Positions 16,689 to 33,196 of a stretch of DNA of 64,000 nt are shown here, in pieces. The translations under genes and the position numbers were made by a program. Numbering within the stretch: position 1 is the first letter of the stretch; each line of letters starts with the position of its first letter. Source of the stretch: Fervidobacterium pennivorans DSM 9078. Lineage in GTDB: Bacteria > Thermotogota > Thermotogae > Thermotogales > Fervidobacteriaceae. The DNA is taken from assembly GCF_000235405.2 (NCBI RefSeq), contig NC_017095.1, positions 2,071,501 through 2,135,500 on the forward strand, in the 5' to 3' direction. Under the pieces are notes generated by a model. It had not been told where the DNA came from, made no database searches, and was given only the letters and a program-made list of their open reading frames with translations.

Positions 16689-17063
16689 ATGAAACCAAGA
16701 CCGGATGATTTCGCAGAAAGGTCTAAACATCTTCAAAATATGACCGATGAAGAACTCAACGCTTACTTTTGGCATCTTGTCGAGAAAGTTGTTGACCCGC
16801 TTGTCGAACTTGCTAGAACACACACAAGTCCGTCTATTGAAAGGTCAGTTCTGTTGAGAATGGGATTCAATAGTCTGGAAGCTAAAAAGCTTGTAGACAT
16901 GATTTTCGAAAGGGGACTCCTTGGAAAGGGTGCCGGTCACATCGTCTGGAGAATAGCGAAAGAACACAACATCGACTACATTGAAGCGGGAAGAAGAATG
17001 ATAAATGGAGAATATTGGGACGATGTTGACAGGATATTCAAAGGGGTGAAGAAGAATGGATAA
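16689..17063 (+). CDS. oraS: D-ornithine 4,5-aminomutase, S subunit
   Basis: This is the small subunit of the adenosylcobalamin- and PLP-dependent mutase that moves the terminal amino group of D-ornithine from C5 to C4. The length (124 residues) and motifs agree with OraS: the N-terminal MKPRPDDFAERSKHL, the RTHTSPSIERSVLLRMGF block and GAGHIVWRIAKEHN. It overlaps the large-subunit gene by 8 bases, which fits an obligate complex. Start is ATG 16689 after GGGGAGGG. Confidence 0.95.
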   Translation: MKPRPDDFAERSKHLQNMTDEELNAYFWHLVEKVVDPLVELARTHTSPSIERSVLLRMGFNSLEAKKLVDMIFERGLLGKGAGHIVWRIAKEHNIDYIEAGRRMINGEYWDDVDRIFKGVKKNG

Positions 17064-19254
17064 ACTCGACCCAAAAGTTCCAATCGATGTTGAAGAAATA
17101 TTAAAAGACCTCGATAAATACCGCCCAAGAAGAAGAGGCTGGACTTGGAGAAAGAAACTTCCTGAAGGAACAAAGGTTGATAGATACGAATATTACCAAA
17201 TAAGTGAACCTTTGAAAAACAGCATTCCGTTGCCAGCTGCGCACTATTTCAACAACATTGACCCACAACCGGACGTTGTCATCACAAGTGAAATCGCTTC
17301 TGGAAGGTTCGAAGATGACATCAGAAGAATGCGCATGGCAGCCTGGCATGGTGCGGACCATATAATGGTTATTAGAACTCTTGGCCAATCACACTTTGAC
17401 GGTCTTATCGAAGGAACACCGGAAGGTGTTGGTGGAATACCCATCACAAGAAAGCAGGTCAGAGCGACAAGAAAAGCGTTAGATTTGATAGAGGATGAAG
17501 TAGGAAGACCTATAAACTTCCATAGCTATGTCTCTGGTGTTGCAGGTCCCGAGATTGCAGTATTGTTTGCTGAAGAAGGAGTCAACGGTGCACACCAAGA
17601 CCCACAGTACAATATTCTTTATAGAGGTGTTAACCCTGTTAGGTCTTTTGTTGACGCAGCGGTTGCTAAGAAGATAATGGCATGGGCAAACATGCTACAA
17701 ATCGATGGTGCGCACAACGCAAATGCATCAGCAAAATTGGCATGGACCGTTATGCCTGAACTTCTTGTCCAACATGGTATCAACTGTATGTTCTCGGTAA
17801 AGGTTGGCATGCCAAAAGAAAACATCGCGCTATCAACTGTTCCTCCAGTGATTGCACCACTACCGGAGATGAGAATAGATTTACCATACGCTGTAGCGCT
17901 TAGAGAACTCTTTAAAGGTTTCAAATTCAGAGCTCAGATGAACACAAGATACATCGAATCAGACTTGTTTGATGCAACGAGGGTGCACGTTCTGAATGTC
18001 GTACTTTCAAGGTTGACAAGTGCAGACTTACAATCAACAATTACCCCGGACGAAGGAAGAAATGTGCCATGGCATATAAACTCCATCAGAGGAATCGAAA
18101 CAGCAAAGCATACTCTCCTTGCAATGGATGGTATAAAGAAATACGTAAAGATTGACCAAGAAGCAATCAGAGAAAAAGTCAGAGAGCTGAAAATGAGAGC
18201 TATTCTCATGCTTGAAGAGATTCTTGAGATGGGCGGTTATTTCGAAGCACTCGAAGCTGGTATGTTTGTTGACAACGGATACTATCCGGAAAGGCTTGGT
18301 GATGGAATTGCACGAAAGAAAGACGGGGAAATTGCAGCTGGAACCGTTGTTCCAAGAGACCCAGATTACATGGCTCCAGTTTGTGAACACTTTGGATACA
18401 ACAACCTGCCTGAAGGCATAGAAAAACCGTGTGACCTCATTGGTGGTTGCACATTCCACAAGCCAGAAAAGATACAGTTTATTGATGAACTCGACGAGAC
18501 AGATAACGTGAACCTCAGATTACAGCGTATAAAAGACATGAAAGCAAGGAACGTTATCAAACCGGAAGTCGAATGGTATTCAGATGGCTGGATTCAGCTT
18601 GACATGACATTCGCATTGCCAGAAGAATATGCAGAGGCAGCAGCGCTTGCGGTTTGTGAGAAGCTCGGACTTGAGGACCCAACGATTATTGCAAAAACCG
18701 TGCTACATCCTGCTGAAGGCACGTATGTCGAAGTTAAAGCAAAAGTTCCTTTTGAAATAAAAATAGACGAACTCAAACTGCCGAAAAAACCAGAAACCCT
18801 GCCAGAAGAAGAGATATTCGAATATGTTGCCAAACGTCCAATTAAAGTGGTCGCTGCAACGGTTGGGGAAGACGAACATTCAGTTGGATTGAGAGAAATC
18901 CTTGATATTAAGCATGGCGGTATTGAAAAATACGGAATCAAATACGTATACCTTGGCACGAGTGTTCCACCTGAAAAACTTATCGATGCTGCAATCGAAA
19001 CCGGCGCTGATGCAATCCTTGCATCCATGATAATCACGCATAACGATGTTCACATCAAGAACATGCGAAGGCTCAACGAACTTGCGATAGAAAAAGGAAT
19101 CAGGGATAAAGTGCTAATCATTGTTGGTGGAACGCAGATAAACAACGATATGGCTGTAGAAAACGGTGTTGATGCTGGATTCGGAAGAGGCACAAAAGGT
19201 ATCCATGTCGCTTCGTTTATTGTGAAGAAGCTCAAAGAAAGGGAAGGAAATTAA
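17056..19254 (+). CDS. oraE: D-ornithine 4,5-aminomutase, E subunit (B12/PLP)
   Basis: This 732-residue catalytic subunit combines a large TIM-barrel substrate domain with a C-terminal Rossmann B12-binding domain. The cobalamin motif DxHxxG is present as DEHSVG (Asp606, His608, Gly611), followed by the usual LGTSVPPEKLI and VGGTQINNDM strands and loops. In the characterised clostridial enzyme the PLP Schiff-base lysine sits in the B12-domain region; the stretch DIKHGGIEKYG here is the probable equivalent, which is inference. With oraS it makes 2,4-diaminopentanoate from D-ornithine. The enzyme needs D-ornithine, yet no racemase is encoded in this window. Confidence 0.96.
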   Translation: MDKLDPKVPIDVEEILKDLDKYRPRRRGWTWRKKLPEGTKVDRYEYYQISEPLKNSIPLPAAHYFNNIDPQPDVVITSEIASGRFEDDIRRMRMAAWHGADHIMVIRTLGQSHFDGLIEGTPEGVGGIPITRKQVRATRKALDLIEDEVGRPINFHSYVSGVAGPEIAVLFAEEGVNGAHQDPQYNILYRGVNPVRSFVDAAVAKKIMAWANMLQIDGAHNANASAKLAWTVMPELLVQHGINCMFSVKVGMPKENIALSTVPPVIAPLPEMRIDLPYAVALRELFKGFKFRAQMNTRYIESDLFDATRVHVLNVVLSRLTSADLQSTITPDEGRNVPWHINSIRGIETAKHTLLAMDGIKKYVKIDQEAIREKVRELKMRAILMLEEILEMGGYFEALEAGMFVDNGYYPERLGDGIARKKDGEIAAGTVVPRDPDYMAPVCEHFGYNNLPEGIEKPCDLIGGCTFHKPEKIQFIDELDETDNVNLRLQRIKDMKARNVIKPEVEWYSDGWIQLDMTFALPEEYAEAAALAVCEKLGLEDPTIIAKTVLHPAEGTYVEVKAKVPFEIKIDELKLPKKPETLPEEEIFEYVAKRPIKVVAATVGEDEHSVGLREILDIKHGGIEKYGIKYVYLGTSVPPEKLIDAAIETGADAILASMIITHNDVHIKNMRRLNELAIEKGIRDKVLIIVGGTQINNDMAVENGVDAGFGRGTKGIHVASFIVKKLKEREGN

Positions 19255-21088: not shown

Positions 21089-21117
21089 TAGCGCAAAAAA
21101 TAGAAGAATGTAAGAAC

Positions 21118-21147
21118 TTAAAATTATCTTAACATTTGTGGTATAAT
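21118..21147 (+). promoter_or_regulatory. extended -10 promoter of the exported-nuclease cluster
   Basis: TATAAT at 21142-21147 is preceded by TG at 21139-21140, forming an extended -10. A weak -35 (TTAAAA, 21118-21123) lies 18 bases upstream. The predicted leader before ATG 21233 is about 80 bases. Confidence 0.65.
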
Positions 21148-21232
21148 AATAAGCTATAATGAACTACCCATCCTGTAAGGTTACTCTTCGTGAAAGCATG
21201 TTTAAGATATCTATTCTTTGGGGGGACAGTGT

Positions 21233-22303
21233 ATGCTTATGCGTAGACTGATTTTTATATCGGTTTCGGTGCTACTGTTCATGGCTTTGTTTTCATTAAC
21301 ATCTTGTCAACCTGGTGCTCAACCTCAACAACCGCAACCACAACCTGAAGAAACGGTGTATAAAAATATTGAAAAAGTGAAAAACGATCTCCTGGTTTCT
21401 TCAGAGGATACCGAAACTACGGTTAACCTGAAAGGCTATGTTGTTTATAGGTTTGAAGATTCAAGCTTGATTCTTGCAAATGACAAGACCGCGATAATGT
21501 TCAAAAATTCAGGTTTGAGTTCCAAGTATGTCGGGAAAGAGATACAATTAAAGTCTGTGAAAGCGGTTTACAAAAACAAAGCATTCTACCTTGAGAGAAC
21601 AAGCTCTACGGAAATATTTGTAGACCTCTCTGGTAAAACCCCACCTCAAGCTAAGAATCTGAACGCCTCAGGTGAGCTTCCTGCACCATCTCTGAAGGAA
21701 GCATTTGCGTTAATGAACGGTTTGTATTCAACGGTTCGGGGAACTATTAGGTTTGACAGCGATAGCAACAAGTATTTTGTAACATACTCTATAGGGACAA
21801 AGAACCAGGTATTTGAAATCTCAGATGAATATTCTATCAGTTTAATAAACCAGTTTAATGTTGATAAACCCATCACAGTTGATGCTGAAGCCACCTTGAC
21901 GGGATATCTCTTCTACGAAACCAACTCTTGGAAATTCAGAGTCTCCAACGCAGAAATTGAAATACCGGCTCCTGATGTTAATGTTGGTATTAACATTCCT
22001 GAATACGTTCCACCTGTTGAACAAGCAACTGTTACGTATTACCAAGCTGAAAAGAAATTGTTAGTGGAATACACTTACACGCTTCCAGACGTTGTGTTCA
22101 TGATATACAAGGAATACAACAATCCATCGAATGAGAATGAAAAGGTGTATGAATTGATTGGAGAGACAACAAGTACGACCTTTGAAAAAACAGAGTTTGA
22201 CTTAGAAGAAATCAGTGGAATTGGTGTTAGAGTGCTTAGCGCTGATAAAACAAAAGAAAGTGAACTATTCATTATCTCAAGGGATAAGTTTATCGTTAAA
22301 TGA
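21233..22303 (+). CDS. lipoprotein with OB-fold-like modules
   Basis: This 356-residue predicted lipoprotein is the first gene of a seven-gene exported cluster. The signal peptide ends in the lipobox LTSC, then a Pro/Gln linker. Two beta-rich modules follow: residues ~50-140 (VNLKGYVVYRFEDSSLILAN) look OB-fold-like as in YhcR-type nuclease-associated domains, and residues ~150-245 contain EATLTGYLFY. A third, fibronectin-like part starts near 260. The EATLTGYL module and the preceding OB module have clear counterparts in the N-terminal half of the lipoprotein at 26289-28568. I recognise no enzyme. Nucleic-acid binding is inferred from the OB folds and neighbours. GGGGGGA at 21220-21226 supports ATG 21233 over TTG 21218. 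Confidence 0.75.
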   Translation: MLMRRLIFISVSVLLFMALFSLTSCQPGAQPQQPQPQPEETVYKNIEKVKNDLLVSSEDTETTVNLKGYVVYRFEDSSLILANDKTAIMFKNSGLSSKYVGKEIQLKSVKAVYKNKAFYLERTSSTEIFVDLSGKTPPQAKNLNASGELPAPSLKEAFALMNGLYSTVRGTIRFDSDSNKYFVTYSIGTKNQVFEISDEYSISLINQFNVDKPITVDAEATLTGYLFYETNSWKFRVSNAEIEIPAPDVNVGINIPEYVPPVEQATVTYYQAEKKLLVEYTYTLPDVVFMIYKEYNNPSNENEKVYELIGETTSTTFEKTEFDLEEISGIGVRVLSADKTKESELFIISRDKFIVK

Positions 22304-22345
22304 TACTTTAATGTTTAAAGAGCTTGGAAAGGAGAGAAAATTACT

Positions 22346-23800
22346 GTGACAAACAAACTAAAAATTGTAGTTTCTTCCTTGGCAGTAATTTCAGCTTTTG
22401 TGTTAGTTTTGACTTCATGTTCTGTAACCTTTACCAATACACATCTCTTTCAAAAGAGTTATGCGGTGAGTGTTACTATAAACCTTCCAACGGATGTTTT
22501 AAATACAAGTAAATCAAGCAATGCATTACCTTATTCCTTTTCTAACAAGCAAATTTCGATGGTGCAGATTACTATTTTGGAATCAGGTTCTGTTGTTGAA
22601 ACAAAAAATGCAACCCAATTAGGGAACTTCACTTTTAACTTAGCACCTGGAACATACACTTTCGACGTAAAAACTTACTTTAAAGATTCAAATCAAGACA
22701 AATTGTATTTCTATGGTTCTTCAACTTCCACAGTTGATGCACAAAATACTAATATAATAATCGACACAAAACTTGCTTCAGGAACAATACACCTGAATGT
22801 ATTACCAACGGATATAACATTTTTTACTGAACATGCGACAGTGACTCTCCAAAAACTCAACGGAACTGCTGTTCAATTTACGCAAGTCGTAGGTAAGCCC
22901 TCTGGAAATTTGGCTGTAGAAGTTTACCCTGGTATCTGGCAAGTTACCACGGAAGGAATTCTTACTTCGCAAACAAATTCGAATGATAAAAGATATTCCA
23001 AGGTTCAACAAAGCAGGCTTGTCTTTGTTGATGTTTCCGAAGATGAACAAATCGTTGAAAAGCTTCTTGTTCCTTCGGAAAGTGACATCGGAAGTTTGTT
23101 ATACGTAAATACTGCAGATGTCCATGACGGGGATACGTTCAAGGTAGGGACACAGTCATATAGATTGATAGGCATCGATGCTCCGGAAGTCCAAACAGGT
23201 TCAAAACCAAGAGGAGAATACGCTGATGAATCAACAGAATTTCTTAAAAGCTTCGTTTCATCCGGAAATGGATACGTTCGTATTATTAATAAAGGAATAG
23301 ACAGTTATGGAAGATATTTAGTCTACCTTCTTAACAACACTGGAGAAAAATTTTATCCGGAAGAATCTCTGAAAAACGGACTTTCAAGGCCTTTACTTTA
23401 CCAAGAAAATGTTGATGAAAGGTTCACACCACGCATTGTAGATGCTTACAAATTAGCGTATCAAAATAGAAAAGGTATATTCTCTAAATATGAAAGTGCA
23501 CAGATTGTTGAACAATCAACTCAAGACAAAGACAGCTATGTGGGAAAAATCGTATGGCTAAAAGGGCAAATTACGAACATTTCAAAAGATTCCACGGGTA
23601 AATACACATTGACACTCGACGATGGATGGGCAACAGTTGAGTTGCGCAAAGAGGAATACGATTACTTCGTTGCTCCATTCGATATGTATTCTTTGAATAA
23701 CAAACTTGTCAAGTTTTACGGAGAGCTTTGGCCCGGTAATACGAGTGGAACATATAAAATCCTTTTGAGAGCATCGTTTGAAGTAGTTTTTATTAACTGA
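22346..23800 (+). CDS. lipoprotein with staphylococcal-nuclease domain
   Basis: This 484-residue predicted lipoprotein (lipobox LTSC) has an N-terminal beta-rich region of ~230 residues. A staphylococcal nuclease (SNase) domain covers about residues 250-385, and an OB-fold-like C-terminal domain follows (VGKIVWLKGQITNI to LLRASFEVVF). All catalytic SNase positions are visible: DGDT, the RLIGIDAPE block carrying the Arg, Asp and Glu equivalents of R35, D40 and E43, and SYGRYL for R87. It should be an active calcium-dependent DNA/RNA endonuclease at the cell surface. The C-terminal half is paralogous to the protein at 30285-31085. Start is GTG 22346 after AAAGGAGAG. Confidence 0.88.
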   Translation: MTNKLKIVVSSLAVISAFVLVLTSCSVTFTNTHLFQKSYAVSVTINLPTDVLNTSKSSNALPYSFSNKQISMVQITILESGSVVETKNATQLGNFTFNLAPGTYTFDVKTYFKDSNQDKLYFYGSSTSTVDAQNTNIIIDTKLASGTIHLNVLPTDITFFTEHATVTLQKLNGTAVQFTQVVGKPSGNLAVEVYPGIWQVTTEGILTSQTNSNDKRYSKVQQSRLVFVDVSEDEQIVEKLLVPSESDIGSLLYVNTADVHDGDTFKVGTQSYRLIGIDAPEVQTGSKPRGEYADESTEFLKSFVSSGNGYVRIINKGIDSYGRYLVYLLNNTGEKFYPEESLKNGLSRPLLYQENVDERFTPRIVDAYKLAYQNRKGIFSKYESAQIVEQSTQDKDSYVGKIVWLKGQITNISKDSTGKYTLTLDDGWATVELRKEEYDYFVAPFDMYSLNNKLVKFYGELWPGNTSGTYKILLRASFEVVFIN

Positions 23801-23830
23801 AATTTCACTTTTTTGAAGGGGGAGTACTGT

Positions 23831-26188
23831 ATGAGAAAGTTTTACTGGGTAGCTTTAGGTTTAACGATTTTACTGGTGCTTTTCTCTTGTACACAAAAAC
23901 CTGTGACGGGTCCTGTTTCAGTTAAAGTTAACGTGAACTTACTGAGTTCAACAACTGTAAAAGCCTTCGAACCACGTTTAACAGGATACTTCTCCGACAT
24001 TGAAAAGATTTACCTCACGGTCAAAGACTCAAGCAACCAAACCATTCTTTCAACGGAAACCACAAACAAGACAAACCCATCGTTCAGTTTTACACTTCCA
24101 AATGCAGGAACTTATAGCTTCTATGTTGAGGCAAAGCGTTCGGACAACACAAGAGTTTTCACAGGACAGAAAGAAAATGTAACGATTACAACCGGAAACA
24201 ACGAGGTGGTAATCGATGGAATTCTTGTCAACGGAACATTGAAAGCAAACGTAGAAATCGATAGCACGGTATGGGAAAGATACAATGTAGATAGTGCGGT
24301 GCTTGAGTTTAAGAAAGACATAGCGACAGAATGGACACAAAAGAGCTTAACAATATCCAGTACAAAAACAATGGTAGAAGAATTACTCTATCCATCAATG
24401 TACACGGTTAGATTCAAAATTAGCTTAATTGCTAAGGACCAATATACAATTCCAGAAAATTGGAGTAACATGTCAAATCCTGCACAAGTGACGATTCCAA
24501 TCGACCCAGATAGAGTAAGAAACGTCACATTTAAAGTTGTCTTCGATTCTGAAAGAAATGAACCCCAGGTGATTGCCGTTCTAACGCAGATAACACTCCC
24601 GTATGCACCAGAAGTGAGCAATCTCACGGCAGTTTGGAACAAAATCAGTAATGAACTTATACTCTCATGGAACTACGAAGAGCAGAATGCAACATTCTAT
24701 ATTTACAAAGAGCTCAAAGATAACGATAACAACACATATTACGAATATGTTGGCAATACGCAAAACAAGACATTTACTATTGTTAACTTCACACAAAGCG
24801 AATATGACAGAATAAACGGTATTGCAATCAACGCGGTTGTAGATGACAAGGAAAGTGGATTGAAAGTGCTTGAAAAAACACAAATCACAGAATTGCAAGT
24901 TCCAAACGCTCCAGGTAACGTAGCAGGAAGTTATGAAGACTACTCACAAAAGCTCACACTCACTTGGGATGCTGTTTCAGGACAAGATGTAAAATACAAA
25001 GTCTACAAGAAGCTAGCAACAGATAATGACTTCATTCTTGTTCAAGATAACATCACTACAACAACCATTACAATTGACCTTCCATTGACTGAGTGGAACA
25101 ACCTTGAAAAAGTAGCAGTTAGTGCATACAACAACGATGGCGAAAGTCAAAAGACAGAACTTGAAAAATCAAACATTACACTCTCTGACTTTGCTGGTGG
25201 AAGTGGAACGGCAGATGAGCCATACCTCATAGGAAATGCAAGGCAGTTGCAGAATATAGGCAAGTCTGAATATTTGAATACAGGTAAATATTTCAAACTG
25301 ATAGCCGATATTGACCTTACAGGTGTAACTTGGACACCGATTGGAACATATAGCTCAAATCTTTCAACAAGTGCATTTGTTGGAGTGTTTGATGGAAATG
25401 GGCACAAAATCATGAATATATCTTTCAACGATACTACAAAGAGCAATGTAGGTTTGTTTGGGTATCTCTACAATGCGACGGTGACGAATTTGATAATTGA
25501 GAATGCAAATATTACAGCAAAGCAATATGTCGGAGCTCTTTCTGGTTGTGCAAAAAACTCTACTGTTGAAAAAGTTGGTGTAAGAAATTCAATTTTGAGA
25601 GCTGAAAACAGTTACTATGCTTACGTTGGAGGTTTAATAGGTGATGTTAATGCGGATAATTCCTCAACGAATACAATGATTATTCGTCAATGTTTTGCAA
25701 GCAATGTGACAGTATCAGCTCCGAATTACGACAATGCACGTGCAGGAGGATTGCTAGGAAGGTTCTACGCTAATGCAGTTGAAACAGGAACTATTGAAAA
25801 TTGTTATGCCACAGGAACAGTGAATTTCATGTCAACGACGAGTTCCAACATAGGTGGTTTAATTGGGCTTGTGTCCAAGAACACAACTTATGGAGGCTCA
25901 GTCAAGATAGCGAACTGCTATGCCGCTGTTGCTCCAAATATGAGTGGTAATGCTAACTGGAAAGGTTTCATAGGCGGTAGTAGTGTTCCTGCTACATCTG
26001 ATAGTGGTAATAACTTTTTTGATACAGACGTTGCAGGAGAAACAGCTGGTTCTGCTTCAGCCAGTTTGCAAACAGGTAAACCAACATCCGAAATGAAGCA
26101 GCAAGCAACATTCTCTGGCTGGGACTTTACGAACATCTGGAAAATCGATGAAGGAAACGACTATCCAAGATTGAAATGGGAATTTTAA
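23831..26188 (+). CDS. lipoprotein with Fn3-like domains and GLUG repeats
   Basis: This 785-residue predicted lipoprotein has a signal ending in LLVLFSC. Residues ~30-250 are beta-rich. Two fibronectin-III-like domains lie at about 257-350 (VSNLTAVWNKISNELILSW) and 357-445 (GNVAGSYEDYSQKLTLTW). A GLUG-repeat region covers ~453-785, with an N-terminal cap (GTADEPYLIGNARQLQNIG), FVGVFDGNGHKI and repeats such as YVGGLIGDV and AGGLLGRF. GLUG arrays usually fold as a right-handed beta-helix on secreted adhesins and surface enzymes. No catalytic motif is visible, so I call it a surface-binding protein. Two stretches of its GLUG region are nearly identical in DNA to the gene at 26289. The 5-base-spaced GAAGGGGGAG favours ATG 23831 over TTG 23813. 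Confidence 0.85.
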   Translation: MRKFYWVALGLTILLVLFSCTQKPVTGPVSVKVNVNLLSSTTVKAFEPRLTGYFSDIEKIYLTVKDSSNQTILSTETTNKTNPSFSFTLPNAGTYSFYVEAKRSDNTRVFTGQKENVTITTGNNEVVIDGILVNGTLKANVEIDSTVWERYNVDSAVLEFKKDIATEWTQKSLTISSTKTMVEELLYPSMYTVRFKISLIAKDQYTIPENWSNMSNPAQVTIPIDPDRVRNVTFKVVFDSERNEPQVIAVLTQITLPYAPEVSNLTAVWNKISNELILSWNYEEQNATFYIYKELKDNDNNTYYEYVGNTQNKTFTIVNFTQSEYDRINGIAINAVVDDKESGLKVLEKTQITELQVPNAPGNVAGSYEDYSQKLTLTWDAVSGQDVKYKVYKKLATDNDFILVQDNITTTTITIDLPLTEWNNLEKVAVSAYNNDGESQKTELEKSNITLSDFAGGSGTADEPYLIGNARQLQNIGKSEYLNTGKYFKLIADIDLTGVTWTPIGTYSSNLSTSAFVGVFDGNGHKIMNISFNDTTKSNVGLFGYLYNATVTNLIIENANITAKQYVGALSGCAKNSTVEKVGVRNSILRAENSYYAYVGGLIGDVNADNSSTNTMIIRQCFASNVTVSAPNYDNARAGGLLGRFYANAVETGTIENCYATGTVNFMSTTSSNIGGLIGLVSKNTTYGGSVKIANCYAAVAPNMSGNANWKGFIGGSSVPATSDSGNNFFDTDVAGETAGSASASLQTGKPTSEMKQQATFSGWDFTNIWKIDEGNDYPRLKWEF
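25330..25518. repeat. 189-bp near-identical direct repeat, copy 1
   Basis: It matches 27758-27946 at 187 of 189 positions; the only differences are AA at 25367-25368 against GG in copy 2. It lies in the GLUG cap region. Identity stops sharply at both ends, including at synonymous sites, which points to recent duplication or gene conversion. Confidence 0.95.
26071..26182. repeat. 112-bp direct repeat at the GLUG C-terminus, copy 1
   Basis: It matches 28452-28563 with about four differences in 112 bases. It encodes the shared C-terminal block around SEMKQQATFSGWDFTNIW and ends at the stop codon region of each gene. Confidence 0.9.
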
Positions 26189-26213
26189 TACAACCCAAAT
26201 GCGATGATTATCC

Positions 26214-26244
26214 AAAAACTCGGGGCTCTGCCCCGGGTTTTTGG
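26214..26244 (+). terminator. terminator hairpin between the two GLUG genes
   Basis: AAAAACTCGGGGC (26214-26226), loop TCT, GCCCCGGGTTTTT (26230-26242): 13 bp with one G-T wobble and a five-T tail. It sits in the 100-base gap between 23831-26188 and 26289-28568, so it may lower expression of the downstream half of the cluster. Confidence 0.8.
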
Positions 26245-26288
26245 CCGAATGACCAAAAATTATTTTTCATATCTCGGAGGTGGTATAG

Positions 26289-28568
26289 GTGAAAAAATGG
26301 TCCATTGCACTTCTGGCTCTTTTAAGCGTGGTTTTGGTTTTTGTCATAACAAGCTGTGTTCCACAACATCCATCACTTTTGTCGGTTAAGAACATCTACG
26401 ATGCAAAGCTAAAGATTTTGAACTCGGCAGGTCCGGTATTGCTCGATAAAGTTGAAGGAACAGTTATTTATGTGTCAGGTAGTGACGCAATCATTCACGA
26501 TGGGCAGACTGGTATTTATGTCTACAAGGCAGGGTTCTACTCTTCGGATGTTGGAAAGAAAGTCACGCTGACTAATGTTATAGGAACAACATACAGAGAT
26601 TCCGTCCAAATAGACTTCAGCAAGGGTGGTTATAAAAACTTTGCAGCAGAAACACTTACAGTTGAACCTACCGCTTTGACAATCGACATTGCAAATAATG
26701 TAAGCATTACAACTCGTGCTCTCTGGGATTTCCAATACGTTAAGGTATACGGTATACTCAATGGTGGAAAGATGACATTTACATATGAGTATGATAAGGT
26801 AAACAAAAGAAAAGCAACTATCAATGTTGCTTCCTTAAGCTCAAGTCTCTTCCTTCCTTACACCTATGACACGGAAGCTACTTTGACAGGTTATTTGCAA
26901 TTTTCAAATGGCGCTTGGAGTTTGAAAGTTCTAAGTGCAGAAATTGGAGATAGCTATCCAGGGGTTGGTGTTTTTGTTGACGAAGTAGTTGATGGTAAAA
27001 CGTTTAAAGTGGGTGAGCAAACTTACGAACTTATAGGAATAGACGATAGTGTAAATCCTTCAGCGGCAAAGACGAAGCTCGAAGAATTTATAAATTCCCA
27101 ACCAGAAGGGATTGTCCAAGTTCTTGTGAAGGGTGAAAAGAATGGAAAGAAATACGCTTTCTTGTTCAGCAAGGATGGTAAGACTTTGTATCAAGAACAG
27201 GCTCTGAAAGATGGTGTTGTTGTTCCAAACCTTGCTGAAGAATGGGAAGATGCGGCAATATATGAATTGCTAAAGAATGCCTACAAATCTGCGTACTCTT
27301 CTAAAAAAGGCGTTTATTCGACATTCTCTGGAGCTTCGGTTATTACGGTTGAAAGTTCAAACACATACATTGAAGGCAACTATGCTATCTTTTCGGGAAC
27401 AGTATCAGATGTAACTGAAGACGCAACAGGAAACGTTAACATTAACGTTAGCAACTGGCTCAAAATAACAATATCGGCAGGTAACTTCAAATATCTGTTT
27501 AGTTCTACGTTTGAACAGTTCAAAAATTCGCTAGAAGGTAAGGTTACTAACTTCTACGGTAAAGCCAAAAGAAGCGAAGGAATACTTGAGATGCCGTTGT
27601 ATGCTGAATGGGAAATGTTCTCGTTCGAATCAGGTTCCGGAACACAAGATGATCCATATATAATCACAAAACCTGAGCACTTAATTAGCGTAAGGGCGCT
27701 TGCAAGTGCTAACAAGTATTTCAGACTCGAGGCAGATATAGACCTTGCAGGAGTTGATTGGACACCGATTGGAACATATAGCTCGGATCTTTCAACAAGT
27801 GCATTTGTTGGAGTGTTTGATGGAAATGGGCACAAAATCATGAATATATCTTTCAACGATACTACAAAGAGCAATGTAGGTTTGTTTGGGTATCTCTACA
27901 ATGCGACGGTGACGAATTTGATAATTGAGAATGCAAATATTACAGCGAGTAGCCGCGCAGGAGCGTTAGCAGGAGCTTCTAAACTTTCTAAAATCTACAG
28001 GGTTAAGGTTGTTAAGAGTTCTGTTAGAGTAACATACAGCGGTTCTGGCTATGGTGGAGGGCTGATTGGAGAAGCGATAGATGGGACGGAAATTGAGGAA
28101 TGTGCAGTTAGAAATACTACAGTTTCTGGGGTGAAATATGCAATTGGAGGATTGCTTGGTAGGTTAAAAGTGAATTCAGGTCAGCCTGCGGTAGTTGTGA
28201 AGAATTGCTATGTTGAGGGAGGACAAGTGAGTAGTGATTACTCAAGTACAACAGCCTCGGCAGGATTTATATGTAATTTCAGCGCAACTTCTGCAGCAGA
28301 TGCGGTGATAGAGAACAACTACGTGGTTGCTTCAATAACAAACGGTAAGGCTTTCATAGCATACAAAGAAACAGGGAGTACTGATCCAGTTGTGACAAGT
28401 TCATATTACGATACACAAGTAGTAGGTTCAGGAGTTAGTGATTCATATGCAACAGGTAAAACAACATCCGAAATGAAACAGCAAGCAACATTCTCTGGTT
28501 GGGACTTTACGAACATCTGGACAATCGATGAAGGAAACGACTATCCAAGATTGAAATGGGAAAATTAG
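26289..28568 (+). CDS. lipoprotein with OB-like modules, degenerate SNase domain and GLUG repeats
   Basis: This 759-residue predicted lipoprotein (lipobox VITSC) is a mosaic. Residues ~35-225 resemble the first gene of the cluster (OB-like module plus EATLTGYLQF). Residues ~225-350 align with the SNase domains of its neighbours, but the active site is lost: DGDT is DGKT, the RLIGIDAPE block is ELIGIDDSV, and the SYGR block is NGKK. An OB-like segment follows, then a GLUG region from ~455 to the end that shares nearly identical DNA with the upstream gene. It probably binds nucleic acid or the surface without cutting. Start is GTG 26289 after CGGAGGTGG. Confidence 0.83.
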   Translation: MKKWSIALLALLSVVLVFVITSCVPQHPSLLSVKNIYDAKLKILNSAGPVLLDKVEGTVIYVSGSDAIIHDGQTGIYVYKAGFYSSDVGKKVTLTNVIGTTYRDSVQIDFSKGGYKNFAAETLTVEPTALTIDIANNVSITTRALWDFQYVKVYGILNGGKMTFTYEYDKVNKRKATINVASLSSSLFLPYTYDTEATLTGYLQFSNGAWSLKVLSAEIGDSYPGVGVFVDEVVDGKTFKVGEQTYELIGIDDSVNPSAAKTKLEEFINSQPEGIVQVLVKGEKNGKKYAFLFSKDGKTLYQEQALKDGVVVPNLAEEWEDAAIYELLKNAYKSAYSSKKGVYSTFSGASVITVESSNTYIEGNYAIFSGTVSDVTEDATGNVNINVSNWLKITISAGNFKYLFSSTFEQFKNSLEGKVTNFYGKAKRSEGILEMPLYAEWEMFSFESGSGTQDDPYIITKPEHLISVRALASANKYFRLEADIDLAGVDWTPIGTYSSDLSTSAFVGVFDGNGHKIMNISFNDTTKSNVGLFGYLYNATVTNLIIENANITASSRAGALAGASKLSKIYRVKVVKSSVRVTYSGSGYGGGLIGEAIDGTEIEECAVRNTTVSGVKYAIGGLLGRLKVNSGQPAVVVKNCYVEGGQVSSDYSSTTASAGFICNFSATSAADAVIENNYVVASITNGKAFIAYKETGSTDPVVTSSYYDTQVVGSGVSDSYATGKTTSEMKQQATFSGWDFTNIWTIDEGNDYPRLKWEN
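27758..27946. repeat. 189-bp near-identical direct repeat, copy 2
   Basis: Partner of 25330-25518, 2428 bases downstream in the same orientation, with two mismatches. Recombination between the copies would delete 2428 bases (about 809 codons) and fuse the two GLUG genes in frame-compatible positions. Confidence 0.95.
28452..28563. repeat. 112-bp direct repeat at the GLUG C-terminus, copy 2
   Basis: Partner of 26071-26182. The spacing between copies (2381 bases) differs from that of the 189-bp pair (2428), so the intervening GLUG segments have diverged in length as well as in sequence. Confidence 0.9.
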
Positions 28569-28590
28569 TTTTTACGGGGAGGGAGTTAAG

Positions 28591-30246
28591 TTGAGCGGCA
28601 AATTAATCAGATATGCTGTCTTAGTTTTTTCGATTTTTTTGGTTTTAATTTCATTTGCCTTCAAAGTTGATTTCAAGTTAACAGGGTATTTAACCTACGA
28701 CATGAACTTGGGAAATCTTGATAATTTCCCGATAGCCTATTGGACAATCACACCACCAGCACCTTTTGATTCCGTGGCAATCAAATTTACCGATTATCTA
28801 ACATATTCACATGCCACCTTTAAGCTCTTTGACTATGATTTCATCGTCCCGAGGTATTACTTCGTTGATACAAGGCTTTCTGTTAATATTCCATACATTC
28901 AGACTATCTACCTTGCAGCGGGTAGGATGAGGCTTTCAAGAGGTTTGACTTCTCAATACGAGGGTGTTTCGCTCGGAGGGCTGAAGTTCGACACATACAA
29001 CACCTCAAATACATCACCAGGGCTTGGCGGATTTGTCGGTTATGTCTATGGCAAATTTGATGGTTATTCATACGAAGTAGGTGGAGCATACAGCACAGAA
29101 ATGAAAACTTTCGCTCTTTACGGGACCCTTACAACCAATTTCGGTCGTTTTGGTGCATACTACGAAACTCGCTACTACCAAGTATCTTTGAATTACTCCA
29201 ATTCCCAGAAGATATCATTTGGAACTGTTGATTACTGGGCTGGTATCGGTGCAGCAACGAACACAATTAATGAACCAAGCTTTTTGGTCGGTGCCAAACT
29301 TACATCCGGTCCTTGGTTTGCAGCTGGTCAGTTTGCTTGGATTGGAGCAAATAAATACGATTTGAGTTTTGCAACAGGAGAACCCTCAAACCCGAATGCA
29401 CCACGCTCTTGGAACGTTATGGGTGAAGTTGGATACAACTTCCCAGGATTTTACGTTGGTGTTTTTGCCAAATACAACAGCAACTGGGCAAGCAGTGGTT
29501 GGTTGCCACTCTATGGTGTGAAGCTGAATGTTGGAGATTTTTCGCTTTCATTTGCCAACGGTGACTTGTATGCTTCTTCTGCACTTCCAACAACACAATT
29601 TGCTCTCCTTAAGCTTACGTATACATACCAAACAAGCATAGACCTACTTGGTGCAGCTCAATCGCTTGTCGCAAGTCTTACTCCAAAACCAGCAGTTCAA
29701 GAAAGCAAGCAACCGACAACAATCAAAATTGCCGACCTTTACAGTATGCCGGAAGGTTCAAAGGTTACTGTCACTGGTACTGTCCTTGCACCAGTTGGAT
29801 TGCTGAGCAATTCAGTAACATATATCCAAGATGAAACAGGAGCGATAATGCTGTATGGAAGGTCTATTCCTACAACTTTGAACGTGGGAGATATAGTTGT
29901 TGTGAGTGGTTCAACGAAAGTCTACAACAACATTCTTGAGATAGTTGTAGATAACATAAGTGTGGTTGGTAAAGGAAATATAAAACCTGTTGAATTAAAG
30001 TCTCTTGACAAGTCTTACCTTTCAAATCTTGTATATGTAACCGGCACAGTTGAGAGCGTTGGAAAGGATAATTTCATTGTAAATGCCGGTGCTTTTAAGG
30101 TAAAGGTTTACATTAAGAGTGCAACAGGAATTAGTTTGGCTGGTATTTCAGAAGGAAAGACCGTTAGGGTAACGGGTATATTCACACTATTTAAAGACGA
30201 ATTTGAAATCCAGCCTTTGAAACAAGAAGATATCGAAGTAAAATAA
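28591..30246 (+). CDS. outer-membrane beta-barrel protein fused to two OB-fold domains
   Basis: This 551-residue exported protein has a cleavable-type signal (LVFSIFLVLISFAF) without a lipobox. Residues ~25-350 have the alternating, aromatic-rich pattern of an outer-membrane beta-barrel (GAYYETRYYQVSLNY, GFYVGVFAKYNSNW, FALLKLTYTYQ). Residues ~370-551 form two OB-fold modules (TVTGTVLAPVGLLSNSVTYI and VYVTGTVESVG) that are clearly paralogous to the protein at 31110-31700. Such OB modules accompany nucleases such as YhcR. I infer that the barrel sits in the toga outer membrane and holds the OB domains near the surface or in the periplasm; the side is unknown. Start is TTG 28591 after GGGGAGGGAG. 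Confidence 0.78.
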   Translation: MSGKLIRYAVLVFSIFLVLISFAFKVDFKLTGYLTYDMNLGNLDNFPIAYWTITPPAPFDSVAIKFTDYLTYSHATFKLFDYDFIVPRYYFVDTRLSVNIPYIQTIYLAAGRMRLSRGLTSQYEGVSLGGLKFDTYNTSNTSPGLGGFVGYVYGKFDGYSYEVGGAYSTEMKTFALYGTLTTNFGRFGAYYETRYYQVSLNYSNSQKISFGTVDYWAGIGAATNTINEPSFLVGAKLTSGPWFAAGQFAWIGANKYDLSFATGEPSNPNAPRSWNVMGEVGYNFPGFYVGVFAKYNSNWASSGWLPLYGVKLNVGDFSLSFANGDLYASSALPTTQFALLKLTYTYQTSIDLLGAAQSLVASLTPKPAVQESKQPTTIKIADLYSMPEGSKVTVTGTVLAPVGLLSNSVTYIQDETGAIMLYGRSIPTTLNVGDIVVVSGSTKVYNNILEIVVDNISVVGKGNIKPVELKSLDKSYLSNLVYVTGTVESVGKDNFIVNAGAFKVKVYIKSATGISLAGISEGKTVRVTGIFTLFKDEFEIQPLKQEDIEVK

Positions 30247-30284
30247 AATTGACGTTAAAAGCTACATAGGAGTGAAGAAGGGGA

Positions 30285-31085
30285 ATGGTTTTTAGAAAAT
30301 CCAAAACAAACGCTGTATTTTTTCTTGTAATCGCTGTTAGCCTGGTTCTTGCCCTTATACTGAGTTCTTGTTCACCTCAAGAAACAGCGATAAGTAATGT
30401 TGAAGTGCTCGATGGGGATACACTGAGAGTTTCAGGACTATCATTTAGAATCATTGGAATCGACGCACCAGAAATTCATGAAGGAGATAAGCCGATAGGT
30501 GAGTATGGGCAGAATGCAAAAGATTATCTTTACTGGTTCGCAAGTCAATTTGAGCTTTCGTACGAGCAAAAGGGGAAAGATAGCTATGGAAGGATTTTGA
30601 TTTACCTTTTTGGAAAAGATAGGCAAACCGGTGTGAAGTATCTTTATGAAGCATCACTTACTGAGAATGGATATGCTCGACCCTTGATTTACGACAGCAC
30701 ATCAGTTCCAAACTACACTAAGGCAATCGTTGACGCTTACAAAAGGGCATACGAAAACAGAAAAGGTATATTCTCGAAATACGATAACGCACCAGTTATC
30801 GACAAAACCAAGGCAAGCCAGATGAGTTCCTATAAAGGTAAGATTGTTTGGCTTGAGATGGATGTTAGTAATGTAAAATTTTCTAACGATACTTACTACA
30901 TCTATTCGGACTTTGCGCTTGTTAAGATAAGAAGTGGTGAGTACAACAATTTATTCAATGGGTACAACCTCTATGGTCTAAAGGGTAGAAAAGTGAGATT
31001 TTACGGTGAACTTTGGTATGACAACTACGAAGGGAAATATATGATTATGCTACGCGCACCGTTTGAAATTAAAATCGTCAACTAA
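30285..31085 (+). CDS. SNase-family lipoprotein nuclease
   Basis: This 266-residue predicted lipoprotein (lipobox ILSSC) has a complete staphylococcal-nuclease domain at about residues 35-165. The active-site residues are all present: DGDT, RIIGIDAPE and DSYGRIL. A C-terminal OB-like domain follows (GKIVWLEMDV to MLRAPFEIKIV). It is essentially a short form of the nuclease at 22346-23800 without that protein's N-terminal region; the two share YxNRKGIFSKY and the final RAPFE/RASFE segment. It should cut DNA and RNA outside the cytoplasm. ATG 30285 is preceded by TAGGAGTGAAG and a closer AAGGGG. Confidence 0.9.
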   Translation: MVFRKSKTNAVFFLVIAVSLVLALILSSCSPQETAISNVEVLDGDTLRVSGLSFRIIGIDAPEIHEGDKPIGEYGQNAKDYLYWFASQFELSYEQKGKDSYGRILIYLFGKDRQTGVKYLYEASLTENGYARPLIYDSTSVPNYTKAIVDAYKRAYENRKGIFSKYDNAPVIDKTKASQMSSYKGKIVWLEMDVSNVKFSNDTYYIYSDFALVKIRSGEYNNLFNGYNLYGLKGRKVRFYGELWYDNYEGKYMIMLRAPFEIKIVN

Positions 31086-31109
31086 AAACAAAAGGGAGGA
31101 ATTGACGGT

Positions 31110-31700
31110 ATGAAAAAGCTTTTGATAACGCTTTTGTTGGTAGTGAGTGTTGTATTTTTTGCGCAGAACTTAGTCAAAATTGCGGATATTTACAAACTAA
31201 AAGAAGGCGAAACGGTTGAAGCAACTGGTATCATCCTTGCCCCAGTTGGAGTGCTTGGAAATTTGACAACGTATATGCAAGATGAGACCGCTGGAATCAT
31301 GTTATACGGCAAAGTTTTACCTGTTGACTTAAAGATAGGTGATGTTGTTAAAGTTGTTGGCAAAACAAAGGTCTACTATGGAATTCTTGAGATTATACCA
31401 GACAAAGTAGAGGTCATTGGCTCAGCTACACCAACGGCTGTTGAACTCAAAGACGCGGACTTCAAAAAATATCTGTCCAACCTGGTTGTAGTTACAGGAA
31501 CTGTGAGTTCTGTTGAGAAGTACCAGTTCAAAGTAAAGACCGATAAGTTCGAGATTTTGGTGTATATAAGAAAAGAAGTGCCATTTAAAGTTAATACGCT
31601 AAAAGTTGGAGACAAGGTTTCGGTAACGGGTGTTATGTATCTGTACAAGGATATGTATGAAATACTTCCAAGGATGCCGGAGGATATAAAGAAATTCTAA
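31110..31700 (+). CDS. secreted double OB-fold protein
   Basis: This 196-residue exported protein has a signal peptide (KKLLITLLLVVSVVFFA, then QN) with no lipobox Cys, so it should be soluble in the periplasm or outside. The rest is two OB-fold modules (EATGIILAPVGVLGNLTTYM and VVVTGTVSSVEKYQ) that match the C-terminal 180 residues of the barrel protein at 28591-30246. It probably binds single-stranded nucleic acid, or presents it to the nucleases of the cluster; this is inferred from fold and neighbours. AAAAGGGAGGAATTGACGGT precedes ATG 31110. A strong terminator follows at 31735. Confidence 0.82.
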   Translation: MKKLLITLLLVVSVVFFAQNLVKIADIYKLKEGETVEATGIILAPVGVLGNLTTYMQDETAGIMLYGKVLPVDLKIGDVVKVVGKTKVYYGILEIIPDKVEVIGSATPTAVELKDADFKKYLSNLVVVTGTVSSVEKYQFKVKTDKFEILVYIRKEVPFKVNTLKVGDKVSVTGVMYLYKDMYEILPRMPEDIKKF

Positions 31701-31734
31701 AAAAAAATGAGTGTAATTTGCATGAATGCATGAG

Positions 31735-31767
31735 AAAGCCAGCTGGGAGAAAACCAGCTGGCTTTTT
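31735..31767 (+). terminator. terminator of the exported-nuclease cluster
   Basis: AAAGCCAGCTGG (31735-31746) pairs with CCAGCTGGCTTT (31754-31765), with five T's at 31763-31767. It separates the cluster from the alkaline phosphatase, though read-through is possible. Confidence 0.9.
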
Positions 31768-31885
31768 AAGGTTTTTAAAGGTTTTTAACAGTTTTAAAAC
31801 GTCTGCTAATAGAAATATGTTAAAGTCCTTCTGGATAACTCCCGGGGAGGAAGCGGGGGAAATCAAAATGATGGAGGTGTTGAGT

Positions 31886-33196
31886 ATGAAACTTAGGGGT
31901 TTCGTGTTGTTATTTTTAGTATTTGTAACCATTATCTCATTTGCGCTGAATATTATTTACCTTGTCGGAGATGGTATGAGTTTTAACCAGCTTCTTCTTG
32001 CAAGTATACTTGAAGGAAGAGTTTTGACAACTATGACATTGCCTTACACAGCTATACAAACGACTTACTCTGCTGATTCATGGGTGACAGATTCTGCTCC
32101 AGCGGGGACGGCCCTCTTTGCCGGATACAAAACATTGAACAGTGCGATAGGCGTATTACCAAATGGTACACCGATGCCTTCAATATTTGAAATTGCAAAG
32201 AGCGCTGGTTACAACATTGGTTTGGCAGTTACGTGTAGGGTAACTCATGCCACACCAGCCTCAATGTACGGGCACGTAACAAATAGAAACGATGAAGTAA
32301 TCCTTGCTAAACAGCTCGCTGAATCTGGAACTGTTGACGTCATTTTTGGTGGCGGATGGGATATGTTTGTCCCAACTGCGCAAGGTGGTAGAAGAACAGA
32401 TGGGCTTAATCTCATAGAAGTGATGAAAAGCAAAGGGTATGAATATATAACAACAGTTGAACAACTTAATACTGTTCAGTCTTCAAAGGTTCTTGGTTTA
32501 TTTGCCAAGGGACATCTTGACCCAGTTTCTAACAGGTCATCAGCTCAACCAACCCTCGATGTTATGACCAAAAAAGCCCTCGAACTTCTTTCAAAGGATG
32601 GTAAACCTTTCATGCTCATGGTTGAAGGCTCACAGATAGATTGGGAAGCACATTCGAACGATTTCTACGGAGTTTGGAAAGAGGTTGTGGAATTTGATAA
32701 CGCTGTCAAAGTTGCTCTCGAATTTGCAGCTAAAGATGGTAACACACTTGTGATTGTTACCGGTGACCACGAAACAGGTGGATTGTCACTTTCAAAAGGT
32801 GGTTACACAATTAACGTGGAACTTGCAAGAAAGGCAAAAGGAACTACACAGATGTTCTTAAGCCAATACAACATCGCAGATAAAGAAAAATTTATTGCGG
32901 GTCTTAAAGAATGGTATGGTATATCTATCACAGATGCCGAATACGAAAACTTGAGACAGATTCCTTCAAACAATCTGAGAAGAGAACTTGCAAGGTTTGT
33001 AAGTGAAAAAGTTGGATTTGGCTGGACAACGTTTGACCACACAGCTGCACCCGTCCCAGTCTACGCTTTTGGACCCGGTGCACATTATTTCACAGGTTTT
33101 ATGGACAACACGGACATTCCTAAGATTATTATGAAGATAACAAAACTTTCGGCAATTTCATTTCCTGAAGTTAAAACAACCGGTAGTGGGTATTAA
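31886..33196 (+). CDS. exported alkaline phosphatase
   Basis: This 436-residue alkaline phosphatase (PhoA superfamily) has an N-terminal signal (FVLLFLVFVTIISFA). The metal and nucleophile motifs are visible: YLVGDGMS with the first metal Asp, WVTDSAPAGTALFAG with the phosphorylated Ser, VEGSQIDWEAH, TGDHETGG, and DHTAAPVPVYAFG. It removes phosphate from phosphomonoesters outside the cytoplasm. Next to the nuclease cluster this would convert released nucleotides to nucleosides and phosphate. The start is ATG 31886, with GGAGGTG 8 bases upstream; the longer open frame from 31718 runs through the terminator of the previous operon and is not credible. Confidence 0.93.
   Translation: MKLRGFVLLFLVFVTIISFALNIIYLVGDGMSFNQLLLASILEGRVLTTMTLPYTAIQTTYSADSWVTDSAPAGTALFAGYKTLNSAIGVLPNGTPMPSIFEIAKSAGYNIGLAVTCRVTHATPASMYGHVTNRNDEVILAKQLAESGTVDVIFGGGWDMFVPTAQGGRRTDGLNLIEVMKSKGYEYITTVEQLNTVQSSKVLGLFAKGHLDPVSNRSSAQPTLDVMTKKALELLSKDGKPFMLMVEGSQIDWEAHSNDFYGVWKEVVEFDNAVKVALEFAAKDGNTLVIVTGDHETGGLSLSKGGYTINVELARKAKGTTQMFLSQYNIADKEKFIAGLKEWYGISITDAEYENLRQIPSNNLRRELARFVSEKVGFGWTTFDHTAAPVPVYAFGPGAHYFTGFMDNTDIPKIIMKITKLSAISFPEVKTTGSGY

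Follow-up and report, generated by a model that had tools for sequence, protein, structure and literature searches.

In Bacillus subtilis, OB modules, a staphylococcal nuclease (SNase) domain and a nucleotidase belong to one extracellular pathway in YhcR, a single cell-wall protein of a one-membrane bacterium whose nuclease activity is calcium-activated and sugar-nonspecific. ExeM/NucH proteins carry a tandem OB region beside a nuclease at the envelope; the OB region of ExeM is essential for nuclease activity, and its expression rises under phosphate starvation in Shewanella (PMC6085458). The PUS loci of Bacteroidetes (PusCD with PhoA or phosphodiesterases), which scavenge organic phosphate, bring together an outer-membrane transporter, binding lipoproteins and a phosphatase (PMC8115612), and the major porin of the Thermotogales, OmpB, is an outer-membrane barrel encoded in the order secG-tyrS-ompA-ompB (PMC3387000). 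Here, we describe seven genes of Fervidobacterium pennivorans DSM 9078, named A to G, that lie on one strand at positions 21233-31700 of the window, a 64,000-nucleotide stretch covering 2071501-2135500 of a single-contig 2.17-Mb genome (G000, contig NC_017095.1). We read this locus, with a probability of roughly two in three, as a cluster that serves nucleic-acid utilisation at the outer envelope of Thermotogota, with a scavenging role. The genes are as follows, in window positions:

21233-22303, + strand: A, lipoprotein with tandem OB-like modules and a C-terminal FN3/Ig-like part in common with C (lipobox; homology to C and to the N-terminus of D; A-type profile, 2.6e-74)
22346-23800, + strand: B, lipoprotein with an Ig-like stalk, a catalytically complete SNase domain and a C-terminal OB module (PF00565, 44.7 bits; catalytic residues; deep branch)
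23831-26188, + strand: C, lipoprotein with Ig/FN3-like modules and a GLUG beta-helix, with no OB module and no nuclease (PF07581 GLUG, 21.8 bits)
26289-28568, + strand: D, lipoprotein with A-type OB modules, an inactive SNase domain, an OB module and a GLUG beta-helix (structure model; catalytic residues replaced)
28591-30246, + strand: E, outer-membrane, porin-like 18-strand barrel with a C-terminal tandem OB pair (structure model; homologues in six families)
30285-31085, + strand: F, lipoprotein with a catalytically complete SNase domain and a C-terminal OB module (PF00565, 47.1 bits; adjoins the barrel phylum-wide)
31110-31700, + strand: G, small secreted protein with a tandem OB pair (signal peptide; about 49% identity to residues 376-549 at the C-terminus of E)

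All seven frames are open at these coordinates, each with a purine-rich, Shine-Dalgarno-like stretch on its 5' side, and are separated by 42 (A-B), 30 (B-C), 100 (C-D), 22 (D-E), 38 (E-F) and 24 bp (F-G). Lipobox signals, with the cysteine at residue 20-29, are present in A, B, C, D and F; a signal peptide precedes the predicted barrel of E, and that of G lacks a lipobox. Checking signals and frames thus bore out a first-pass annotation, made from the sequence alone, that described seven consecutive genes for exported proteins: five lipoproteins, one barrel and one small secreted protein.

A three-gene core across the Thermotogota

We searched relatives with E and F and read the gene neighbourhoods, then ran profiles of both proteins over the phylum (103 genomes). 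An E-type barrel and an F-type nuclease adjoin in 24 of the 25 genomes that encode both (twelve in family f1, two in f11, three in f5 and seven in f9). The 25th, G043, has the two genes on short contigs, where adjacency is not decidable; in G100, counted among the neighbours, an OB lipoprotein gene stands between them. Three arrangements occur in the four families: the barrel followed by F; an OB lipoprotein, F and the barrel in that order; and F divergent from the barrel and an OB lipoprotein. Because order and orientation differ between families, the association appears to be retained rather than mere shared synteny. Homologous clusters without the nuclease genes but otherwise conserved for another clear role had been named at the outset as a reason to abandon the nucleic-acid reading; instead, the nuclease is kept beside the barrel in these 24 genomes.

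A profile of the OB lipoprotein encoded 5' of E in Thermosipho-like genomes matches both A and the N-terminal part of D, and this A-type profile finds a third member of the clusters in families f1, f5, f8, f9 and f11. We conclude that the conserved core consists of three genes, encoding an OB lipoprotein (A/D-type), the barrel (E) and the SNase-OB lipoprotein (F).

The way in which these domains are joined varies. Homologues of the E barrel occur in six families and have the OB pair fused to them in f1, f3, f8 and f11; the f5 and f9 barrels lack the pair, and their genes usually have one for an OB lipoprotein nearby. In f8 this OB pair is joined to SNase, and in f5 to PLD-type nucleases. These rearrangements are the strongest argument that barrel, OB modules and nuclease act together.

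Outer-membrane SNase lipoproteins would meet incoming DNA, and related Thermotoga are reported transformable, so the cluster might instead be a barrier or processing device that destroys phage and other foreign DNA or trims it for natural transformation. We consider this improbable: the neighbourhoods scanned showed no recognisable genes for competence, restriction or phage defence next to the cluster, and phosphatase partners and a porin fusion fit it poorly.

Several further features of the core regions were seen. A GIFT/DUF4350-like lipoprotein is a regular fourth member in f9 (L133:9687-10580, L142:9577-10455, L135:7870-8715, L077:11618-12484); L081 (and, by length, L086) has this domain joined to SNase and OB, and in Thermosipho-type proteins (L121, L123) it is joined only to OB. 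Family f5 has a short barrel beside or near an OB lipoprotein, with a PLD-type nuclease fused to OB elsewhere (L128, L136-L138; L087, L125). Decaying cores have a split F (L074:8078-8811, G015), a 73-residue remnant of F (L078:8569-8790, G005), or a remnant of E together with an F whose lipobox cysteine has become tyrosine (L075:8946-10237, G017). An OraE-type aminomutase gene lies a few kb 5' of the SNase cluster in the window (17056-19254) and also in genomes of another family (L147:16-2223 and L150:14-469; f9, g36).

Nuclease, OB and barrel domains

Two intact SNase domains and one dead one had been predicted for the locus, and profile, alignment and structure model agree with this count. 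The domains of B and F score above the curated PF00565 cut-off of 21 bits, and the equivalents of the DGDT motif (D21 included), R35, D40, E43 and R87 are all present in both, with alanine at the Thr41 position. These catalytic residues are invariant in 17 of 17 F/B-type sequences. B is built like F with a stalk added; it was considered as a recent duplicate of F and rejected as such, since it branches deeply in the tree. In D, by contrast, D21 is replaced by lysine, R35 by glutamate and R87 by lysine, and E43 is lost, so that the domain fails the test of catalytic residues. Its model nevertheless superimposes on staphylococcal nuclease over 116 residues (Z 18.1, root-mean-square deviation 1.6 A). 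A sequencing error is not the cause, since the orthologue in the nearest relative (L064) has lost the same residues. We conclude that the SNase domain of D is, as modelled, a maintained non-catalytic fold of the kind known from the inactive SNase repeats of SND1, a protein that was also among the matches of the structure search.

Single-sequence searches of Pfam and NCBIfam gave no name for A, D or most OB modules, so structure models and profiles were needed. Pfam OB-fold matches (tRNA_anti/DUF5689-like) fall just under the cut-off of 27 in E (23.6) and G (24.0), as does a DUF5689 match in G (28.2 against 28.6), and G weakly matches the OB part of the ExeM/NucH model (E=1.5e-4, 20.7 bits against a cut-off of 300). 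Structure prediction, which the first-pass annotation had proposed as a check, returned both OB and SNase folds. Two five-strand OB-like units were modelled at the C-terminus of E (predicted local distance difference test, pLDDT, about 81-95). The model of D, built from twelve aligned sequences (mean pLDDT 69), has in order an N-terminal OB-like unit, a less certain second one, the SNase domain, another OB-like unit and the GLUG beta-helix. The OB modules of A, B, F and G are tied by sequence to these units of E and D. OB-like modules had been claimed for at least six of the proteins, and the number is exactly six (A, B, D, E, F and G), with none in C. Structure alignments of E and D cover the barrel, the SNase domain and the GLUG part, and the OB parts rest on the models; Foldseek matches to a HIN domain (p204-DNA) had low TM-scores and are not used as evidence. 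From the fold and its repeated fusion to nucleases (SNase, PLD), we infer that the OB domains bind nucleic acid. A 1423-residue protein at L141:3702-7970 (- strand) combines several OB modules with a PHP/CehA-type metallohydrolase and a GIFT domain.

Structural matches to the GLUG beta-helix of D include BACOVA_03286 and part of IgA1 protease (Z 20-22). GLUG and Ig-like surface modules on lipoprotein nucleases suit an adhesin-like role at the surface, and extracellular nucleases of Vibrio reportedly shape biofilm (PMC3212620). The cluster could therefore manage extracellular DNA in the toga or biofilm, through matrix remodelling or detachment, with nutrition secondary. This seems unlikely to us: trimming a matrix requires neither a dedicated channel nor recurrent phosphatases or 3'-nucleotidases, and the GLUG proteins C and D stand beside the core only in Fervidobacterium, whereas the core is phylum-wide. 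C itself was rejected as a nucleic-acid component, since its N-terminal stalk is shared with a lipoprotein alpha-amylase. At L099:6862-10427, a plain SNase gene lies directly 5' of such an alpha-amylase lipoprotein with a C-homologous N-terminal stalk. The GLUG parts of C and D are near-identical as DNA in two segments, 25286-25518 against 27714-27946 (233 nt, 94%) and 26071-26187 against 28451-28567 (about 115 nt, 95-96%), which suggests recent exchange or gene conversion.

The model of E, built from nine aligned sequences, has a mean pLDDT of 73 and a predicted TM-score of 0.48 as a whole, with moderate confidence in the barrel. About 18 long antiparallel strands (residues 1-325) precede the two OB-like units. 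The barrel aligns with solute porins over 270-290 residues at Z 16-18 (OprD/Occ at about 16-17, LamB maltoporin and chitoporins, and also Wzi and AlgE), with Foldseek E-values down to 2.9e-7; E has no Pfam porin match and is 7-13% identical to porins in the structure alignments. Porin termini are periplasmic, and with the usual porin topology the OB pair of E would thus face the periplasm. For this reason, and because the lipoproteins could sit on either face, the description of the locus as a cell-surface capture system goes beyond what the sequence shows. A, B, D and F have no aspartate after the lipid-modified cysteine; in E. coli, an aspartate there signals inner-membrane retention, a rule that may not hold in Thermotogota.

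An OprD/Occ-like fold suits small acidic solutes, and in Thermosipho-type genomes (L068, L069, L070, L071, L073, L074) the core comes directly after a glycerol catabolism operon (GlpK, glycerol-3-phosphate responsive antiterminator). The barrel might then import some other phosphorylated or acidic solute, such as glycerophosphodiesters or sugar phosphates, with SNase as an accessory. The glp link is, however, confined to Thermosipho-type genomes, and the SNase and OB partners are kept where glp genes are not, which makes such an import role a long shot.

Phosphatases, transcription units and lineage-specific genes

Three further features flank the seven genes:

21114-21168, + strand: probable operon promoter with an extended -10 (consensus match TTAAAA-18-TATAAT at 21118-21147)
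31733-31767, + strand: intrinsic terminator-like hairpin between G and H (14 pairs, then a T run)
31871-33196, + strand: H, exported alkaline phosphatase PhoA in a neighbouring transcription unit (PF00245, 312.8 bits; same position in four Fervidobacterium genomes)

The 55-bp promoter stretch is 82% identical to non-coding DNA 5' of the cluster in the nearest relative. A relative has a different hairpin at the place of the G-H one. H lies 170 bp beyond G and is a transcription unit separate from A-G, starting about 100 bp past the hairpin. The gene probably begins at 31871 or 31886 and not at the TTG at 31718, because the 5' part of that longer open reading frame crosses the terminator; a hydrophobic export signal follows 31871, and the PF00245 score far exceeds the cut-off of 24.4.

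The exported alkaline phosphatase noted at first behind the terminator is thus a PhoA; its linkage to the cluster, however, is limited to Fervidobacterium and involves a separate unit. Four genomes (G000, G006, G007 and G008) have PhoA immediately 3' of the cluster. In G005, whose F gene has decayed, it is 124 bp from a different, plain SNase. We do not count PhoA as a core member, since 39 of 61 relatives encode it but almost always away from the cluster.

Staphylococcal-type nucleases leave 3'-phosphate ends, which are no substrate for 5'-nucleotidases and can be used by PhoA and CpdB-type enzymes. Other families have such enzymes near the core. In G100, the gene for a CpdB-like 3'-nucleotidase with LysM comes after those for the barrel and a GIFT lipoprotein, in the same direction and with gaps of about 80 bp. 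In G056, a CpdB-like protein and BMP/B6-class (nucleoside/B6) ABC-transporter genes lie about 3 kb 3', with an opposite-strand gene between, an arrangement not kept in the related G069. Elsewhere in its genome, G000 encodes a BMP-type ABC transporter and a 5'-nucleotidase. CpdB is described as a 3'-nucleotidase in PMC10454023. Secreted phosphatases are thus nearby in three lineages of seven or eight, PhoA in Fervidobacterium and CpdB-like proteins in two other families. With perhaps three such phosphatases per roughly 2000 genes, one would fall within ten genes on either side in a few percent of cases per lineage; by this rough estimate, proximity in three lineages is well above chance. The recurrence supports, but does not prove, complete digestion to nucleoside and phosphate.

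The nearest relative, G007, lacks A, B and C, and has an IS240-type transposase (PF13610; L064:5147-6088, - strand) between the conserved promoter region and D. G007 may have lost them through an insertion-sequence event, or G000 may have gained them. In G006 and G008, an A/D-type OB region and a C-type Ig/GLUG region are parts of one protein. A, B and C are therefore a lineage-specific extension, and the window holds the core plus extra surface modules; of the seven-gene set first proposed as one system, the three-gene core is conserved and A, B and C are peculiar to the lineage.

Proposed role and known systems

The genes, domains, active-site residues, predicted folds, neighbourhoods and domain fusions are seen directly. 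The substrate, its binding, the direction of transport, the membrane face of the lipoproteins and the nutritional purpose are inferred from that composition. At the outer membrane, the lipoprotein nucleases F and B would degrade DNA or RNA to nucleotides and fragments that end in a 3'-phosphate, while the OB lipoproteins A and D may hold the polymer, the dead SNase domain of D being kept as a binding module. The barrel would admit fragments to the periplasm, where its C-terminal OB pair and the free OB protein G could hold them. An exported phosphatase (PhoA here, CpdB-like 3'-nucleotidases in other families) would then remove phosphate, and ordinary transporters would take up nucleosides and inorganic phosphate. 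The earlier proposal that the set binds, cuts and dephosphorylates nucleic acid is supported in outline by the predicted OB and SNase folds, the nuclease kept by the barrel and the secreted phosphomonoesterases that recur nearby. More tentatively, and somewhat doubtfully, the cluster could be a TonB-independent counterpart, for nucleic acids, of polysaccharide utilisation loci, in which surface SNase lipoproteins feed oligonucleotides into a nucleic-acid channel and its periplasmic OB tail captures them or ratchets them inwards.

Several observations weigh against a scavenging role. Most OB modules are neutral to acidic overall (isoelectric point about 5-9), their net charge being at best slightly positive. 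Nor is this OB family restricted to nucleases, since it is found joined to GIFT/DUF4350 and PHP domains as well. The PhoA linkage is confined to one genus and lies behind a terminator. F-type genes occur without a barrel in 16 genomes of two genera and in two others, and eight genomes have a barrel (in one case a partial match) but no F-type gene. The system is dispensable, given the decay of nuclease or barrel in several species (G005, G015, G017). Finally, two core-carrying Thermosipho metagenome-assembled genomes (MAGs) came from lipid-fed, not DNA-fed, enrichments (PMC8630151).

In the same study, a Kosmotoga MAG with an extracellular nuclease and a nucleoside transporter appeared on DNA, and a Thermosipho MAG, GB_058, was abundant in lipid-fed cultures without having lipid genes and was proposed to use dead-cell material (PMC8630151). 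One GB_058 contig (L091) carries the core, which offers a possible explanation for this lifestyle. In hot sediments, DNA and RNA are a plentiful food rich in phosphorus, yet little is known of how oligonucleotides used as nutrients cross the Gram-negative outer membrane, and the occurrence of nucleases among genomes has been poorly characterised (PMC8630151). The cluster gives concrete, phylum-wide candidates: an uncharacterised family of OB-fused porin-like proteins, its nuclease and its binding lipoproteins.

Each of the known systems differs from this locus. YhcR unites its functions in one polypeptide, whereas here they are on separate genes and a channel is added; profile searches found no 5'-nucleotidase domain in A-G. 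OprD/Occ, LamB and chitoporins share the 16-18-strand solute porin fold with E (Z 16-18), but to our knowledge none of these families carries OB domains. Compared with ExeM/NucH, SNase replaces the EEP nuclease and the functions are divided among several lipoproteins and a barrel; the match of G to the ExeM/NucH model is confined to its OB part, with no EEP nuclease domain after it. Compared with the PUS loci, the channel is a porin-like 18-strand barrel rather than a TonB-dependent SusC, SusD is absent and nucleases belong to the core; a profile search of A-G gave no match to a TonB-dependent receptor or SusD. E was rejected as the known porin OmpB by gene context alone: unlike OmpB in its secG-tyrS-ompA-ompB setting, it stands beside SNase and OB lipoproteins in nearly all families inspected and carries OB modules. 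The main text of a Fervidobacterium keratin transcriptome paper makes no mention of nuclease, alkaline phosphatase or lipoprotein. That no named system has this composition, as first suggested, agrees with our literature search, which covered few subscription papers. As far as the literature was searched, the parts are thus of known kinds and their combination is new, above all the fusion of a porin-like barrel to OB modules beside an SNase lipoprotein.

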